IMG/VR virus record: IMGVR_UViG_3300029945_000043 | Span: 1-29,410 of that record | Strand: one strand, 5' to 3' | DNA: 29,410 nucleotides | From: a virus | Part shown: positions 4,612 to 12,143 of the stretch, in pieces | Layout: each line of letters begins with the position of its first letter | Position numbering within the stretch: the stretch's first letter is position 1 | Notes under the pieces: model-generated | Told to the model about the DNA's origin: nothing | The model's database searches: none | What the model saw: only the letters and a program-made list of their open reading frames with translations | Translations under genes and position numbers: made by a program

Positions 4612-5078
4612 GCGCCGCCGTCACCGTGCATGGCCACCCCGCGGCGGAGATGGCATGGCTACGCGCTAGGCTTGCACACGACATCGAGCAATGCGCGACG
4701 CTGTACTGGTGGAGCGTCTACTCCGTGAAAGACGCGGTGCAGGTGCTACACGCCAGGGCTTTGTGGTTCGACGCCCACCAGATCAGGGCAGGCGAGATGG
4801 CGTTCACCATCAAGCTGCGCGACGCCGTGGAGCGATTCCTGGATGAGGCGATTGGTCGGCACGGAGAGGCGCACGCCGCCGCGTTCCGCGCGATGACAGC
4901 CGCCGCGCGCGCACAAATCAACGAGCGGGGTGATCGCAACGCCGCGGCCGCCGCCGCCGCGTCCTGCGCGGCGCGCCATGACCCGCTGCCGCCTGCGTAC
5001 CTTGTTCAGCAGGCCACCGAGCAGGCGGCCAAAGAAATTCGGATGTCGGAATCATGGTGGACGAAACGGACCCCATGA
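4608..5078 (+). CDS. Helical protein of unknown function, 156 aa
   Basis: Overlaps both neighbours by 4 bases in ATGA fashion. The sequence is almost entirely helical, with aromatic residues in LYWWSVYSVKDAVQVL and a run of Ala (NAAAAAAASCAARHD) before a C-terminal Gln/Glu helix. I see no catalytic motif and no known family. As the gene just before the RepA-like ATPase it might be a replication accessory protein, for example a loader or single-strand-binding partner, but this is only positional inference. Confidence 0.65.
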   Translation: MSAAVTVHGHPAAEMAWLRARLAHDIEQCATLYWWSVYSVKDAVQVLHARALWFDAHQIRAGEMAFTIKLRDAVERFLDEAIGRHGEAHAAAFRAMTAAARAQINERGDRNAAAAAAASCAARHDPLPPAYLVQQATEQAAKEIRMSESWWTKRTP

Positions 5079-6319
5079 AAGAGATACGCGAACGGCTCGC
5101 GGCGTATGACGGTGTTATCAACGCCGTCTACGGCGACAACGTGGTGCCGCACCCCGCCCTCGCCGCCAATCCCCGACCGTCCGCGCTGGTCATCAAGCCG
5201 GCCGCGCTTCTCGCGGGCGAACAGATCGTCCCGCGGCAATGGCTGTACGGGACGGTGTTGCTGCGGCGCATGGTCACCGTCATCATCGCGCCCGGCGGGG
5301 TCGGCAAAACCTCCTGGTCAATCGCCGCCGGCCTGTCGCTGGCGCTCGGTCGCGGCCTGATCGGTGATTATGTCCATCACCAGGCGCATGTGCTGTTCGC
5401 GTCCCTAGAGGACCCGGAGGAAGAATTCGACCGGCGCGTGGCGGCGGCGATGCTGCGCTACGCGATCCACCCCGATGAACTCCGGGGCCGCGTCAGTCTG
5501 ATTGACGGGCGCGCGCGGCATCTCGTGATGGCGGAACTCAACCGCGCCGGCGAGATGGTGTTTCCCGACAAGGCCGCGCTCACCGACCTCATCCGGGGCA
5601 TGAAGATCGACGTGCTCATCATCGACCCCGTCGTGAACTCACACGGCCTGGACGAAAACGACAACACGCAGATCAACGCCTTGGCCCGCGCATGGTCGGA
5701 AATCGCCAACGACACCGGATGCTCCGTGGTGCTGATCCATCATACCCGCAAGGGCGCGGTGGCCGGCGACCCTGACTCTGGACGCGGCGCCAGCGCGCTC
5801 GTCCATGCCAGCCGGTCCACATTCACCCTCACCGCCGCGACGCTTGCGGATGTCGAGAAGCTCGGCATCAAGGACAACGAGCGGCGGCAATACATCCGCC
5901 TTGACGACGCCAAGGTGAATCTATCGCCGACGGCCGAGGACGCCCGTTGGTTCCGGCTCACCTCGATGCCGCTCGGAAATGGCGACGCCTTTTATCCGAG
6001 GGGCGACAATCTCCAGGTGATCGAGGCATGGACGCCGCCAAAGTCTGCCATTTCCCAGCAAACGCCGGCGGCGATCAATCAGGCGTTGGACGTCATTGCC
6101 GCCGGAAAGGACGGCCTGCCGTACGCCAAAAACCACCAGAACGGGCGATGGGCCGGAAACGTGCTCGTCGACATGCTCGGCCTCACGCCCGCCGACGCCA
6201 TCCGCGCCATCGCGACCTGGCTCAAGGAAGGGTTGCTCTTTGAGAATCAATTCCGCGACCCGGAAACCCGCAAGGCGCGCGCCGGGCTCGGTGTCAGCAG
6301 CCGGAGGCCGACGGAATGA
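5075..6319 (+). CDS. RepA-like hexameric helicase ATPase (AAA_25)
   Basis: 414 aa from ATG 5075, which overlaps the previous stop as ATGA like its neighbours; ATG 5054 would give 421 aa. It is a RecA-fold ATPase of the RepA/AAA_25 group. Walker A is APGGVGKTS (residues about 72-80), an ADP-side segment HVLFASLEDPEEEF follows, Walker B is IDVLIIDPV (D184), and VVLIHHTRKG carries the His sensor. About 100 C-terminal residues form a separate helical domain (GRWAGNVLVDMLGLTPADAI), likely a winged helix. RSF1010 RepA and phage relatives unwind DNA at an origin. The gene is followed at once by an iteron-like repeat region, which supports a role in replication initiation. Confidence 0.85.
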   Translation: MKEIRERLAAYDGVINAVYGDNVVPHPALAANPRPSALVIKPAALLAGEQIVPRQWLYGTVLLRRMVTVIIAPGGVGKTSWSIAAGLSLALGRGLIGDYVHHQAHVLFASLEDPEEEFDRRVAAAMLRYAIHPDELRGRVSLIDGRARHLVMAELNRAGEMVFPDKAALTDLIRGMKIDVLIIDPVVNSHGLDENDNTQINALARAWSEIANDTGCSVVLIHHTRKGAVAGDPDSGRGASALVHASRSTFTLTAATLADVEKLGIKDNERRQYIRLDDAKVNLSPTAEDARWFRLTSMPLGNGDAFYPRGDNLQVIEAWTPPKSAISQQTPAAINQALDVIAAGKDGLPYAKNHQNGRWAGNVLVDMLGLTPADAIRAIATWLKEGLLFENQFRDPETRKARAGLGVSSRRPTE

Positions 6320-6327
6320 CAAAGCCA

Positions 6328-6538
6328 GTGGCGCATTCGGTGGCGCACGGTGGCGCGTTCGTTCCGGCTGGTGATTTTTTTTCGTGGGATTCCCTGGGCG
6401 GCGTCGGGTCACGCGCCTTGCGCCACCGCTCCCCTCTGTCCAGAGGACAGAGAGGGGAGCGGGTGGCGCATCGCGAGGCCCCAACCCAAAGCCGATTTTG
6501 CGCCACTGCTTTTCTTGTCGGTGGCGCACGGTGGCGCG
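6328..6538. repeat. Iteron-like octamer cluster, candidate replication origin
   Basis: Eight copies of GTGGCGC(A/G) or its complement lie in 211 bases with no gene: forward at 6328, 6340, 6350, 6463, 6521 and 6531, reverse (TGCGCCAC) at 6419 and 6499. Copies at 6350 and 6531 end in G. A run of eight T (6375-6382) is the only AT-rich patch. The stretch directly follows a RepA-like helicase gene. Iterons next to the initiator gene are the classical layout of plasmid and phage origins, so an origin is a fair guess; the motif could instead bind a regulator. Confidence 0.5.
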
Positions 6539-6548
6539 TTCGTTCCGG
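6337..6548 (+). repeat. 31-bp exact direct repeat
   Basis: Bases 6337-6367 are repeated exactly at 6518-6548, 181 bases apart. Each copy starts TCGGTGGCGCACGG and ends GTTCGTTCCGG, and each carries two of the octamers. The copies flank the large inverted repeat at 6419-6470. Exact identity at third positions of any frame argues for selection on DNA or a recent duplication rather than for coding. Confidence 0.8.
6419..6470. repeat. Large near-perfect inverted repeat (stem-loop)
   Basis: Left arm 6419-6441 and right arm 6445-6470 pair around an AGA loop. The arms match over all 23 bases of the left arm with only one extra C and one extra dinucleotide in the right arm. The outer ends are the octamers TGCGCCAC and GTGGCGCA. 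There is no T-run after it, so it is not a standard terminator. It could be an extruded structure at an origin or a primer/packaging signal. Confidence 0.75.
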
Positions 6549-6608
6549 GCGCAAATCGGGTCGCCTCCCGGCACCCTTGGTCGGCTGGTTCTGACGGCTA
6601 GGAATAGA

Positions 6609-6851
6609 ATGGATGTTCGATCCGTGAGCCGGCGCCGGCCTAAGTCGATCGCCAACGACAACCCCGGCGAGATCGTGCTGGCCGCGGTGCCGTGCGCCGC
6701 CTGCCGCGTGCTGATCGCGGAGCGGGCGCCGAGCATCTACGTCGTGGTCGGAACCGACGTGCGGGGCTGGTGCTCGCCCGTCTGCGCGGCCTCCGGCGGG
6801 GTGTGGCCATGGGCGGCGGCCGATCAGGCGATCAGGGCGACCTGGGTGTGA
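6609..6851 (+). CDS. Small zinc-finger protein, unknown function
   Basis: 80 aa from ATG 6609 with an AGGA ribosome site 5 bases upstream. Four cysteines in the order C29-x2-C32 ... C55-x3-C59 make a likely zinc knuckle, separated by a beta-rich stretch (APSIYVVVGTDVRGWCS). The N-terminus is basic (SRRRPKS). This looks like a small nucleic-acid or protein adaptor; I know no named family for it. An ATG at 6384 in the same frame would run through the repeat region and was rejected. It lies just before the NusG-like gene, and its stop overlaps a possible GTG (GTGA) start for that gene. Confidence 0.65.
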   Translation: MDVRSVSRRRPKSIANDNPGEIVLAAVPCAACRVLIAERAPSIYVVVGTDVRGWCSPVCAASGGVWPWAAADQAIRATWV

Positions 6852-7045
6852 CGATCCGTCCGGTGTTTGTTCATACCCCTTGCGAAAGGTCGCGCGCGGG
6901 TGCAGATCGCAAGAGCAGGGCGGACATCAATGGCTTAGGTGTCGCGCCTGCGCAGCCATGCCGATCTGACGCCAAACAATCAAGATCCGGACATGGCGGG
7001 CGGCGCGACGGCGCCGGCAGGAAACACAAGGCCAAGCCGACGCCG
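6852..7045. other. Gap or N-terminal extension before the NusG-like gene
   Basis: 194 bases. The frame of the NusG-like gene is open throughout and could start at GTG 6848 in a GTGA overlap. From about 6985 codon use becomes strongly GC-ending and the frame reads GRRDGAGRKHKAK, a basic motif often seen in phage DNA-binding tails; from 6851 to about 6985 codon use is not gene-like. I cannot decide between leader and coding. Confidence 0.3.
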
Positions 7046-7585
7046 ATGCAAACGACCTGGCCGAAATCCGGCGGCCCGCGCTGGCTCGCCGTCGCCACGC
7101 ACCCGCAGGCCGAACGTCTCGCGACGCAGGAGATGTCGCTCGCCGGCTATCGCTCCTATCTGCCGTACATCGCCGTCCGGCAGCGCGACCCCGTGGTCTG
7201 GTCGATGTGGCGCAAATCCCTGGTTCCGCGTTTCGCCGGGTATTGCTTCGTCCAGCACGATTACGACGCCGATCCCTGGCAACCGATCCACCGCCTCGCC
7301 GGGGTGCGCAACATTCTCACGACGCCGGAAGGCCGCCCCGTCCCGGTGGACGACAAACTGATCGCGTGGCTGATGGCTCTCGACGCGGAAAAGCCGCTGC
7401 TCGACGCGGCTAAAATGCCCATTTTCGCCGTCGGCCAGGTGGTTCGGATCGAGGACGGGCCGTTTCAGGGTTTCCCGGCCACCGTGCTCGCGTGCGACGG
7501 CTACACCACGGAACTGCTGGTCACGATCTTTGGCCGCTCCACCAAGGTCACGATCGAACGCTACAGGATCGCGGGGGCCGCCTGA
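7046..7585 (+). CDS. NusG/RfaH-family transcription elongation factor
   Basis: 179 aa from ATG 7046. The NGN domain spans residues about 12-92: RWLAVATHPQAERLATQEM, then YRSYLPYIAV, then LVPRFAGYCFVQHD and IHRLAGVRNIL, which are the standard NGN strands and helices. A KOW segment follows (FAVGQVVRIEDGPFQGFPATVLA, 128-150). Length and order match NusG and RfaH. Such proteins bind RNA polymerase and suppress pausing; phage or plasmid paralogues usually act on their own operons, so an antiterminator for phage genes is likely but not shown. A GTG at 6848 would add 66 mostly basic residues. The stop overlaps the next ATG as TGATG. Confidence 0.85.
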   Translation: MQTTWPKSGGPRWLAVATHPQAERLATQEMSLAGYRSYLPYIAVRQRDPVVWSMWRKSLVPRFAGYCFVQHDYDADPWQPIHRLAGVRNILTTPEGRPVPVDDKLIAWLMALDAEKPLLDAAKMPIFAVGQVVRIEDGPFQGFPATVLACDGYTTELLVTIFGRSTKVTIERYRIAGAA

Positions 7586-9800: not shown

Positions 9801-10451
9801 ATGAAAATCCGCCTCGTCCCCATCGGCCGGGTCGCGCCCTACCCCGGCAACCCGCGCGCGATCAGCGCCGAGGCGGTCAATAAGGTCGCCAACAGCCTGC
9901 GCGAATTCGGCTGGCAGCAACCGATCGTCGTCGATCCGGAAATGGTCGTCGTCGCGGGCCACACGCGGCTGCTGGCGGCGCGCCTGCTCGGCATGACGCA
10001 AGTGCCGATCAAGGTCGCCGAGGGCCTCACGCCGGCGAAAATCGCCGCCTACCGCCTGGCCGACAACCGCAGCGGCGAGGAAGCCGAGTGGGACATGCGC
10101 CTGCTGCGGATCGAACTCGACGCGCTGGAGGCGGCCGATCTCAATCTCGGAGTGATGACGGGGTTCGATGACGACGAACTGGAGTCGATCCGCCTCGGCG
10201 ATGATGATGACGAGCCCGGCGATCCGACGAAGTTGGCGGACCGCTTCGGGCTGCCACCGTTCTCGGTGCTCAACGCGCGTGACGGCTGGTGGCAGGATCG
10301 CAAGCGGGCCTGGATCGCGCTCGGCATCCAGAGCGAACTGGGCCGTGGCGAGGACCTTCTCGGCCGCGCCGGCGAACTGGAGCGAGGCGATCGGGAGGGC
10401 TGGCCGCCGGGCGAACGCGACGCCGGGCGGCGGCGCCATGCCGGCGGCTGA
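9801..10451 (+). CDS. ParB/Sulfiredoxin-fold nuclease-like protein
   Basis: 216 aa. The N-terminal half is a ParB-like domain: NPR (17-19), VNKVANSLREFGWQQPIVVD (27-46), and VVAGHTRLLAARLLG (50-64), the conserved GHTR box. In phages this domain typically works with DNA methyltransferases and may guide or nick DNA. Residues about 150-180 (FGLPPFSVLNARDGWWQDRKRAW...) are, as I recall, the beginning of a methyltransferase region that is fused to ParB in related phages. The last ~30 residues turn Arg/Gly-rich, and a different frame looks more natural there, so the gene may be cut short by a frameshift. The methyltransferase follows 57 bases later in the same frame. Confidence 0.85.
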   Translation: MKIRLVPIGRVAPYPGNPRAISAEAVNKVANSLREFGWQQPIVVDPEMVVVAGHTRLLAARLLGMTQVPIKVAEGLTPAKIAAYRLADNRSGEEAEWDMRLLRIELDALEAADLNLGVMTGFDDDELESIRLGDDDDEPGDPTKLADRFGLPPFSVLNARDGWWQDRKRAWIALGIQSELGRGEDLLGRAGELERGDREGWPPGERDAGRRRHAGG

Positions 10452-10512
10452 CTACGCCAAACGCCAGCGCGGCGACGGACGCGGCCGGGCGATCGCCGCG
10501 GGGTCCAAATGA
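10438..10512 (+). CDS. Short bridging frame, possibly part of a broken ParB-methyltransferase fusion
   Basis: In the +1 frame relative to ParB, from about 10405 to 10512, the translation (TPGGGAMPAADYAKRQRGDG, then RGRAIAAGSK) looks like the linker found in ParB-methyltransferase fusions. An ATG at 10438 would make a 24-aa peptide whose TGA overlaps the methyltransferase ATG (10509). I treat it as fusion linker put out of frame rather than an independent gene. Confidence 0.3.
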   Translation: MPAADYAKRQRGDGRGRAIAAGSK

Positions 10513-11408
10513 CGCGCGTTCCAAATGCTATCGAGGGGGGCGCGGCGATGCCCCTGGATCGGGCCAGGGACGCACGCAAGGCCGGCGCCCGGGCCGCCAA
10601 CGGGGGCACGCCGGCGGGCCTGACGTTCGGCAAGATGCCGGACAACATCACCGGACCGCCCACCGGCACGTCGATCTTCGACCCGGTGCTGTGCGAGTTG
10701 GCCTATCGGTGGTTCTGCCCTCCGGGCGGGATCGTTCTCGATCCCTTCGCCGGCGGGTCGGTGCGCGGCATCGTCGCCTCCAAGCTGGGTCGCGGTTATA
10801 TCGGTGTCGATCTGAGCGCCCGCCAGATCGCGGCCAACCGGATCCAGGCGAGCGCGATCGGTTGCGATCCCGAGCCGGTCTGGATCGAGGGCGACAGCCG
10901 CGAGATCGAGGCGCTCGCGTCGGGGACGATGGCGGATTTCGTGTTTTCGTGCCCGCCTTATGCCGACCTGGAAGTCTACAGCACCGACCCCCGCGACCTC
11001 TCGGCGATGGCCTATCCGGCGTTCCTCACGGCCTACCGCGCCATCATCGCGGGCGCGGCCAGGCGCCTGCGCGACGATCGGTTCGCGGCCTTCGTCGTAG
11101 GCGACGTGCGGGACAAGCAGGGGTTCTACCGGGGCTTTCCCTGGCACACGGTCCAGGCGTGCGAGGATGCCGGCCTGCGGCTCTACAACGAGGCGGTGCT
11201 GGTGACCGCCGTGGGATCGCTCTCGATCCGGGTGGGCAAGCAATTCGAGAGCAGCAGGAAGATGGGAAAGACCCATCAGAACCTGTTCGTGTTCTGCAAG
11301 GGCGATCCGCGCAAAGCCACGGCCGCGATCGGCCCCGTGGAATTCGGCGAGCTGCCCACCGACCCGGATGCGCCGCCCGACGACACCCGGTATGGCGAGG
11401 AGCTTTAG
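10509..11408 (+). CDS. DNA methyltransferase (N6-adenine or N4-cytosine)
   Basis: 299 aa. AdoMet motif I is DPFAGGS (78-84) after the conserved FDPVLCELAYRWFCPPGG; the acidic GVDLSARQIAANR follows, and catalytic motif IV is SCPPY (147-151). All core motifs are present, so the enzyme should be active. SCPPY is of the (S/D)PP(Y/W) type used for exocyclic amino methylation of A or C; the target site cannot be read from sequence. The motif I to IV order is that of phage ParB-linked methylases. It lies between ParB and a PLP enzyme and probably acts with them on phage DNA. Confidence 0.88.
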   Translation: MTRVPNAIEGGAAMPLDRARDARKAGARAANGGTPAGLTFGKMPDNITGPPTGTSIFDPVLCELAYRWFCPPGGIVLDPFAGGSVRGIVASKLGRGYIGVDLSARQIAANRIQASAIGCDPEPVWIEGDSREIEALASGTMADFVFSCPPYADLEVYSTDPRDLSAMAYPAFLTAYRAIIAGAARRLRDDRFAAFVVGDVRDKQGFYRGFPWHTVQACEDAGLRLYNEAVLVTAVGSLSIRVGKQFESSRKMGKTHQNLFVFCKGDPRKATAAIGPVEFGELPTDPDAPPDDTRYGEEL

Positions 11409-11411
11409 CCG

Positions 11412-12143
11412 GTGCCCGCCGCGCTCGCCGCCTGGATGCCGGCGACGCCGGTCCTGACCGAGCATGAAGGCATCATCGTCGCGCGCGACGACCTGTTTCC
11501 AGGCGGGACCAAGGCGCGGTTCGCCGGCGACCTGTTCGACGGCGCCGACGAGGTGGTTTACGCGAGCCCGGCGCAGGGCGGCGCCCAGACGGCGCTGGCA
11601 TACACGGCGGCGCGGCTGGGCAAGCGCGCGACCATCTTCGTGGCCAAGCGGTCCGACCCGCATCCGCGCGCGATCGAGGCCAAGCGGATGGGCGCCCGGA
11701 TTTTCCAGGTCGCGCCGGGATATCTGAACGTGGTGCGGCATCGGGCGCGCGCCTATGCGCAGGCCCGCAAGGCGTTGCTGGCGCCGTTCGGGTTCGATCT
11801 GCCGGGGGCGGTGGCCGCGATCGCCGCGGCGGCGCGGGCCACCGGCGAGGCGCCCGACGAGGTATGGTGCGCGGCGGGTTCCGGCGTGCTGGCGCGGGGG
11901 CTCGCGGCGGCGTGGCCCGACGCGCGGAGGCATGTCGTCCAGGTCGGCCGGACGTTGTCCGCCGGCGATGTCGCCGGCGCGTCGATCCACGTCTATCCGC
12001 GCGGGTTTGGCGAGCACGCCGCGCGCGCCGCGCCGTTTCCGTCCGATCCGCACTACGACGCCAAGGCCTGGGAAATCTGCCGCGAGCGGCATGGAACCGG
12101 CTGCGTCCTGTTTTGGAACGTGACCGGACCCGCGCGGCCGTAG
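11412..12143 (+). CDS. Fold-type II PLP-dependent enzyme (tryptophan synthase beta / ACC deaminase-like)
   Basis: 243 aa from GTG 11412, three bases after the methyltransferase stop. RDDLFPGGTKAR has K34 as the PLP lysine, as in D-cysteine desulfhydrase/ACC deaminase-like enzymes. SPAQGGAQTALAYTAARLG (52-70) is the substrate-binding loop and helix, KRATIFVAKR the next strand, and CAAGSGVLARG (about 154-164) the Gly-rich phosphate loop. It is shorter than typical members (~320 aa), lacking part of the C-terminal region. Phages carry PLP enzymes in DNA hypermodification clusters, so addition of an amino-acid-derived group to a base is one option; the reaction and substrate are unknown. Confidence 0.8.
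   Translation: MPAALAAWMPATPVLTEHEGIIVARDDLFPGGTKARFAGDLFDGADEVVYASPAQGGAQTALAYTAARLGKRATIFVAKRSDPHPRAIEAKRMGARIFQVAPGYLNVVRHRARAYAQARKALLAPFGFDLPGAVAAIAAAARATGEAPDEVWCAAGSGVLARGLAAAWPDARRHVVQVGRTLSAGDVAGASIHVYPRGFGEHAARAAPFPSDPHYDAKAWEICRERHGTGCVLFWNVTGPARP

Follow-up and report, generated by a model that had tools for sequence, protein, structure and literature searches.

A candidate iteron origin directly downstream of an RSF1010-type RepA helicase gene in a contractile-tailed phage

Introduction

What do eight near-identical octamers do directly behind the helicase gene of a phage, and does the product of that gene recognise them? The question is raised by IMG/VR virus record IMGVR_UViG_3300029945_000043, whose 29,410 bases are called the window here. 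A first-pass annotation had read positions 6328-6548 as a phage replication origin or a plasmid-like maintenance region. We consider this stretch, with a probability of roughly 85%, to be the iteron array of a replication origin, or a site required in cis for replication like crr of P4, that would be recognised by the product of the upstream gene.

The record encodes a terminase, portal, major head and tail sheath protein, and by these genes the phage is contractile-tailed. It has neither end repeats nor a tyrosine integrase and is probably a fragment. The host is probably a member of the Acetobacteraceae, because the closest named bacterial relatives are Roseomonas and Acetobacteraceae. Two genes after repA lies a gene for a NusG-family protein (6692-7585, NGN domain ~7079-7366; PF02357, phrog_6386, transcription antiterminator). 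Further downstream, at 9801-11408, a ParB_N-domain gene and an N6_N4 methylase gene match different parts of the fused family phrog_498, and by these matches the two are a split DNA methyltransferase. It is directly followed by an odd piece of cargo, a PLP-dependent, threonine dehydratase-like enzyme (11412-12143; PF00291, phrog_7093) that is possibly linked to DNA modification.

Results

The octamer GTGGCGC(A/G) occurs eight times within 6328-6538, in the order + + + - + - + +, and the 31-bp repeat TCGGTGGCGCACGGTGGCGCGTTCGTTCCGG is exact, both as the first-pass annotation had reported. In 211 nt, 0.074 octamers are expected by chance (Poisson P ~2e-14, or ~6e-10 once all positions are allowed for). 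The annotation had named an equal repeat density elsewhere in the genome as an argument against its reading; the density is low, with 13 GTGGCGCR in the whole record against 10.4 expected from shuffles, and the five copies outside the array are at background level or below. The last base of repA is 6319 and the first octamer begins 9 nt later. Near the middle of the array lies a hairpin, CCGCTCCCCTCTGTCC-AGA-GGACAGAGAGGGGAGCGG, flanked by a pair of facing octamers (6419- and 6463+); it was absent from the first-pass annotation. The features of the locus are as follows.

5075-6319, + strand: repA, RSF1010-RepA-like hexameric helicase (AAA_25/RecA fold) with a C-terminal winged helix, as predicted from PF13481 and 1g8y
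6038-6316, + strand: C-terminal winged-helix domain of RepA (residues ~322-414, predicted structure), proposed to bind the iterons; the word tracks this domain and not the ATPase
6272-6274, + strand: codon of Lys400 in the wing, which covaries with the central dinucleotide of the iteron
6328-6335, + strand: iteron GTGGCGCA
6337-6367, + strand: 31-bp exact repeat, copy 1
6340-6347, + strand: iteron GTGGCGCA, within the 31-bp repeat
6350-6357, + strand: iteron GTGGCGCG, within the 31-bp repeat
6375-6382, + strand: T8 tract, a weak candidate for an unwinding element
6419-6426, - strand: iteron GTGGCGCA, left of the hairpin
6426-6462, no strand: hairpin between facing iterons
6463-6470, + strand: iteron GTGGCGCA, right of the hairpin
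6499-6506, - strand: iteron GTGGCGCA
6518-6548, + strand: 31-bp exact repeat, copy 2
6521-6528, + strand: iteron GTGGCGCA, within the 31-bp repeat
6531-6538, + strand: iteron GTGGCGCG, within the 31-bp repeat

The description of the stretch as free of genes needs one qualification. A 92-codon open reading frame (6316-6594) does exist and overlaps the repA stop (ATGA), but coding-like codon-position bias was looked for in it and not found, and 6328-6548 is probably without a gene. The ribosome site annotated near 6600 is plausible, with AGGA at 6600-6603 and the ATG of the next operon at 6609. Within the array no convincing AT-rich melting element was found; the best 25-nt AT content of 0.60 equals the control median, and the surroundings of the T8 tract are not richer in AT than control windows. 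Of the change in GC skew that the annotation had proposed to look for, no clear sign was found at the array.

The annotation of the upstream gene as a RepA-like ATPase is borne out by its matches. RepA (alternative in-frame ATG at 5054) matches PF13481 (AAA_25) with E 1e-33, and in a PDB profile search its closest solved relative is RepA of RSF1010 (1g8y, E 8e-33). Structure prediction, which was run with viral and genome loci only, gave a pLDDT of 92.6 with 1g8y as top fold match. By fold and sequence, RepA is a RecA-fold, RSF1010-type helicase, for which a hexamer and helicase activity are predicted. The C-terminal domain is confidently predicted as a winged helix, with helices at 361-368 and 372-385 and wing strands at 388-394 and 401-407; residue 400 is at the start of the second wing strand. 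A fold search with this domain returned generic winged helices only (best E 5e-3), and the origin-binding domain of P4 was absent from the best 50 fold matches.

Relatives of RepA were gathered from plasmids, phages, viral contigs and bacterial genomes. With the window RepA alone as query, neither viral nor genome contigs yielded a relative; alignments of closer relatives were required for this, and one wide alignment contained no block of sufficient conservation to serve as a query. A DNA search with the array region against phages gave nothing meaningful. Judged by gene content, the complete relatives include circular phage-plasmids, several of them without a tyrosine integrase. Of the relatives on circular plasmids, one from Rhodoplanes, which carries a terminase, and two from Microvirga have no tyrosine integrase, and one from Methylobacterium has a tail gene together with a tyrosine integrase. 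The Rhodoplanes phage-plasmid also encodes a NusG-family protein.

The place of the array is conserved among these relatives even where the word has changed, which bears out the first-pass idea that the repeats should recur beside repA. In 81 of 104 non-redundant RepA loci the commonest octamer is significantly repeated in the 400 nt 3' of the gene. When an array is defined as at least four copies of some octamer in these first 400 nt, 79 of the 104 loci have one, compared to 32 of 1857 control windows from the same loci; in a larger set of 191 non-redundant relatives with sequenced 3' flank, 138 have at least four copies and 53 lack four exact ones. Each locus's own word reaches 13.8 per kb in the 400 nt 3' of repA, against 0.075 per kb elsewhere, and the first copy follows the stop codon at a median distance of 13 nt. 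Most of the words fit the register NTGNNGCA, 59 of 78 arrays doing so at 4 of 5 fixed positions. Its central dinucleotide NN is uniform inside each array and different between phages, the words including GTGGCGCA, ATGGCGCA, TTGGCGCA, GTGACGCA, GTGTCGCA, CTGGAGCA, CTGCCGCA, GTGCGGCA and others. Perfect hairpins (arm of at least 7) are found in 88 of 115 arrays of relatives and in 464 of 1867 control windows; some of them are pairs of facing iterons themselves. A mid-array hairpin core, CCTAAAGG / CCTTTAGG, recurs in relatives, for example at loci L244, L248, L252, L241 and L096. In a group of relatives (L053, L066, L071, L087, L035) no octamer is repeated within the 400 nt that follow repA, and the origin of this group may lie elsewhere.

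We show here that the word covaries with the C-terminal domain of RepA. Across 67 loci, a partial Mantel test of word against C-terminal domain given the ATPase yields r 0.33 (p 0.0005), while the reverse test, word against ATPase given the C-terminal domain, yields r -0.19. Of 360 alignment columns, that of Lys400 predicts NN best (z 23.6, next 10.1). Lysine at residue 400 goes with GC in 56 of 63 cases and any other residue in 1 of 49 (Fisher 8e-23). In 15 independent pairs that differ in having lysine or not, on an ATPase-only tree from which the C-terminal domain was excluded, the change of word agrees in 12.8 and opposes in 0.4 (median p 0.0005). The other pairings at residue 400 are H with AC/TC/CC, E with CG, Q with GT, R with GA/TA (in a standard wing) and M with several dinucleotides, those of Q and M being drawn from the expanded set itself. 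A one-residue code was fixed from the first 67 loci and then applied to 38 held-out loci, where it was correct in 22 and wrong in 16; 5000 shuffles gave a mean of 8.3 and a maximum of 17. Since the code does better than every shuffle, the link between residue 400 and NN is real, and the simple one-residue rule is incomplete. About 5 of the 16 failures (R with GG) have a differently built wing around the aligned residue, and the remaining ones (M with TG/GG/AT, some K) are genuine exceptions to the rule.

The octamer was also searched for in the reverse direction. A scan of viral contigs found at least 120 stretches with a tandem octamer. Dense clusters, with at least five octamers in 300 bp, number 11 among the 120 stretches listed, and in each of these matches the cluster sits where a replicative helicase gene ends. 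This gene codes for a recognised RepA in five cases and for a D5-type helicase in another five; in the remaining case, locus L105, the contig starts inside a RepA-like C-terminus, and the cluster follows this truncated end. At L107, L114, L115, L116 and L213 a dense GTGGCGCR array lies immediately 3' of a gene for a D5-type primase-helicase, which is unrelated to RepA. To judge from these positions, one octamer is used by two helicase families, RepA and D5-type. We do not claim shared ancestry of their octamer-binding modules, as a profile comparison of the RepA C-terminal domain with D5-type C-termini shows no similarity.

Discussion

The covariation of the word with the C-terminal domain makes RepA the likely binder, and an initiator with its iterons, as the first-pass annotation had supposed, is the simplest reading of the locus. 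We infer that RepA would bind the array directly, that melting and helicase loading would follow there, and that the array would be active as an origin. Binding to the GTGGCGCA words would be the role of the C-terminal winged helix, in which wing residue K400 would read the central GC. The copies in both orientations around the hairpin would gather RepA as rings on two half-arrays, and the DNA would open at or near the hairpin. RepA would in this way be placed directly as helicase, with no separate iteron binder of the RepC type.

Other functions have to be weighed for repeats at such a place. The array sits between two transcription units and could be an operator by which RepA or a regulator controls repA or the operon from 6609, with replication starting elsewhere. 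Iteron arrays often have a regulatory role too, and the gene of the NusG-like antiterminator is close downstream. Such a gene is present in just 21 of 101 array-bearing loci, however, and we rejected its product as a general partner of the array. The array is moreover 3' of repA and away from the repA promoter, and its word covaries with the wing of a replicative helicase; in PICIs the identical layout is a tested origin (PMC6092414). An operator in place of an origin is hence improbable. Still less probable is a terminator or anti-termination site of the repA operon, formed by hairpin and repeats. Most arrays do hold a GC-rich hairpin, with T content slightly raised 3' of it (0.27 vs 0.19), and in P4 a terminator lies between alpha and crr, but the window hairpin has no T-run after it, and a terminator would work without 5-10 identical octamers that lie in both orientations and change along with RepA. 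We give hardly any credit to a parS-like centromere bound by the ParB-like protein of 9801-10451. This protein matches part of the methyltransferase-type family phrog_498 and belongs to no parABS pair, ParA was not found among the genes scanned in the window, and the repeats track the RepA wing residue; what speaks for a centromere is the ParB_N domain encoded in the window and the example of the mycobacteriophages Miko and Rachaly, which carry parS direct repeats directly downstream of repA (PMC7157519).

A narrower form of the main reading, whose probability overlaps with that given above, is an accessory cis-site that is required for RepA-driven replication, while initiation takes place at a second array outside the contig. 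P4 is the precedent, in which a crr of 10 octamers directly 3' of alpha is kilobases away from the annotated origin with its further octamers. In the 53.8-kb Rhodoplanes plasmid, however, 8 of 12 GGTGACGCR lie in the 200 bp after repA and the others are single, and a Microcystis phage has 14 ACTGGCGC, of which 5 fall within 200 bp after repA and the others are scattered. One dense cluster per complete record favours an origin over an accessory site of the P4 kind. We regard the accessory site as unlikely but deserving of some weight.

Beyond the single locus, the origin reading leads to a wider proposal that we hold at even odds. The arrays would define a large and so far unreported group of phage replicons whose RSF1010-type hexameric helicase recognises its own origin via 3' NTGNNGCA iterons. 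Its wing would carry a nearly one-residue code (K: GC; R: NA; H: AC/TC/CC; E: CG; Q: GT), so that one substitution would be enough for a phage to change its origin specificity and, with it, its compatibility. A search of mainly open-access literature found no published description of this RepA/iteron family. The diversity of words may come from incompatibility or from attack on origins, by analogy to what was shown for PLE (PMC8263062). If the proposal is true, origin and initiator are placed for more than 100 phage and phage-plasmid lineages of undescribed replication, and replicon compatibility groups become predictable from sequence. The code would be a rare natural amino-acid-to-base code for an initiator, and single substitutions could test it.

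Among known systems, RepA of RSF1010 (IncQ) has the same ATPase fold and is the closest solved relative, but it measures 279 aa, whereas the window RepA has 414 aa and ends in a winged helix. Opening of oriV is the task of RepC in RSF1010, and the loading of RepA follows this step (PMC8965321). Origin opening and helicase, split there between RepC and RepA, appear to be merged in the window RepA; no member of the RepC family was found among the window genes scanned, the contig being incomplete. In the pRN1 system (PMC4234260) the helicase likewise carries a winged helix at its C-terminus, and its gene is closely followed on the 3' side by an essential stem-loop. Its protein is, however, an archaeal prim-pol/SF3 protein and its origin is described as a stem-loop, while here iterons are found. 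PLE has matched sets of initiator and iterons of which only cognate pairs are functional (PMC7145576, PMC8263062). Unlike in the window, its RepA_N initiator has no helicase and its iterons are semi-palindromes of ~30 bp.

P4 and the SaPIs share the layout of the window and differ in the helicase. Alpha of P4 is a D5-type primase-helicase, and SaPI Rep helicases are of the D5/SF3-like AAA+ type. As in the window, P4 (NC_001609) has octamers in both orientations directly 3' of its helicase gene, namely the ten copies of GGTGAACA in crr next to alpha, and a hairpin, the terminator, at the end of the gene; GGTGAACA resembles GGTGGCGCA. Alpha differs in having a separate annotated origin and in its D5-type C-terminus, to which the RepA domain bears no profile similarity. 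The Rep-ori of SaPI/PICI and the Cch2 origins of SCCmec (PMC6092414, PMC7581432) have short iterons immediately 3' of the initiator-helicase gene, as here. In these elements the C-terminal domain of the helicase binds the iterons, and here it is the predicted winged helix that covaries with the word; in both cases the words vary between elements. A clear AT-rich centre is present in PICIs, whereas none was found in the window array. The SaPI/PICI and SCCmec helicases are D5/SF3-like, while RepA is of the RecA-fold RSF1010 type. If our reading is true, the layout with an origin just 3' of the helicase gene is also used with a helicase of unrelated fold, and one protein serves there as both binder and helicase.
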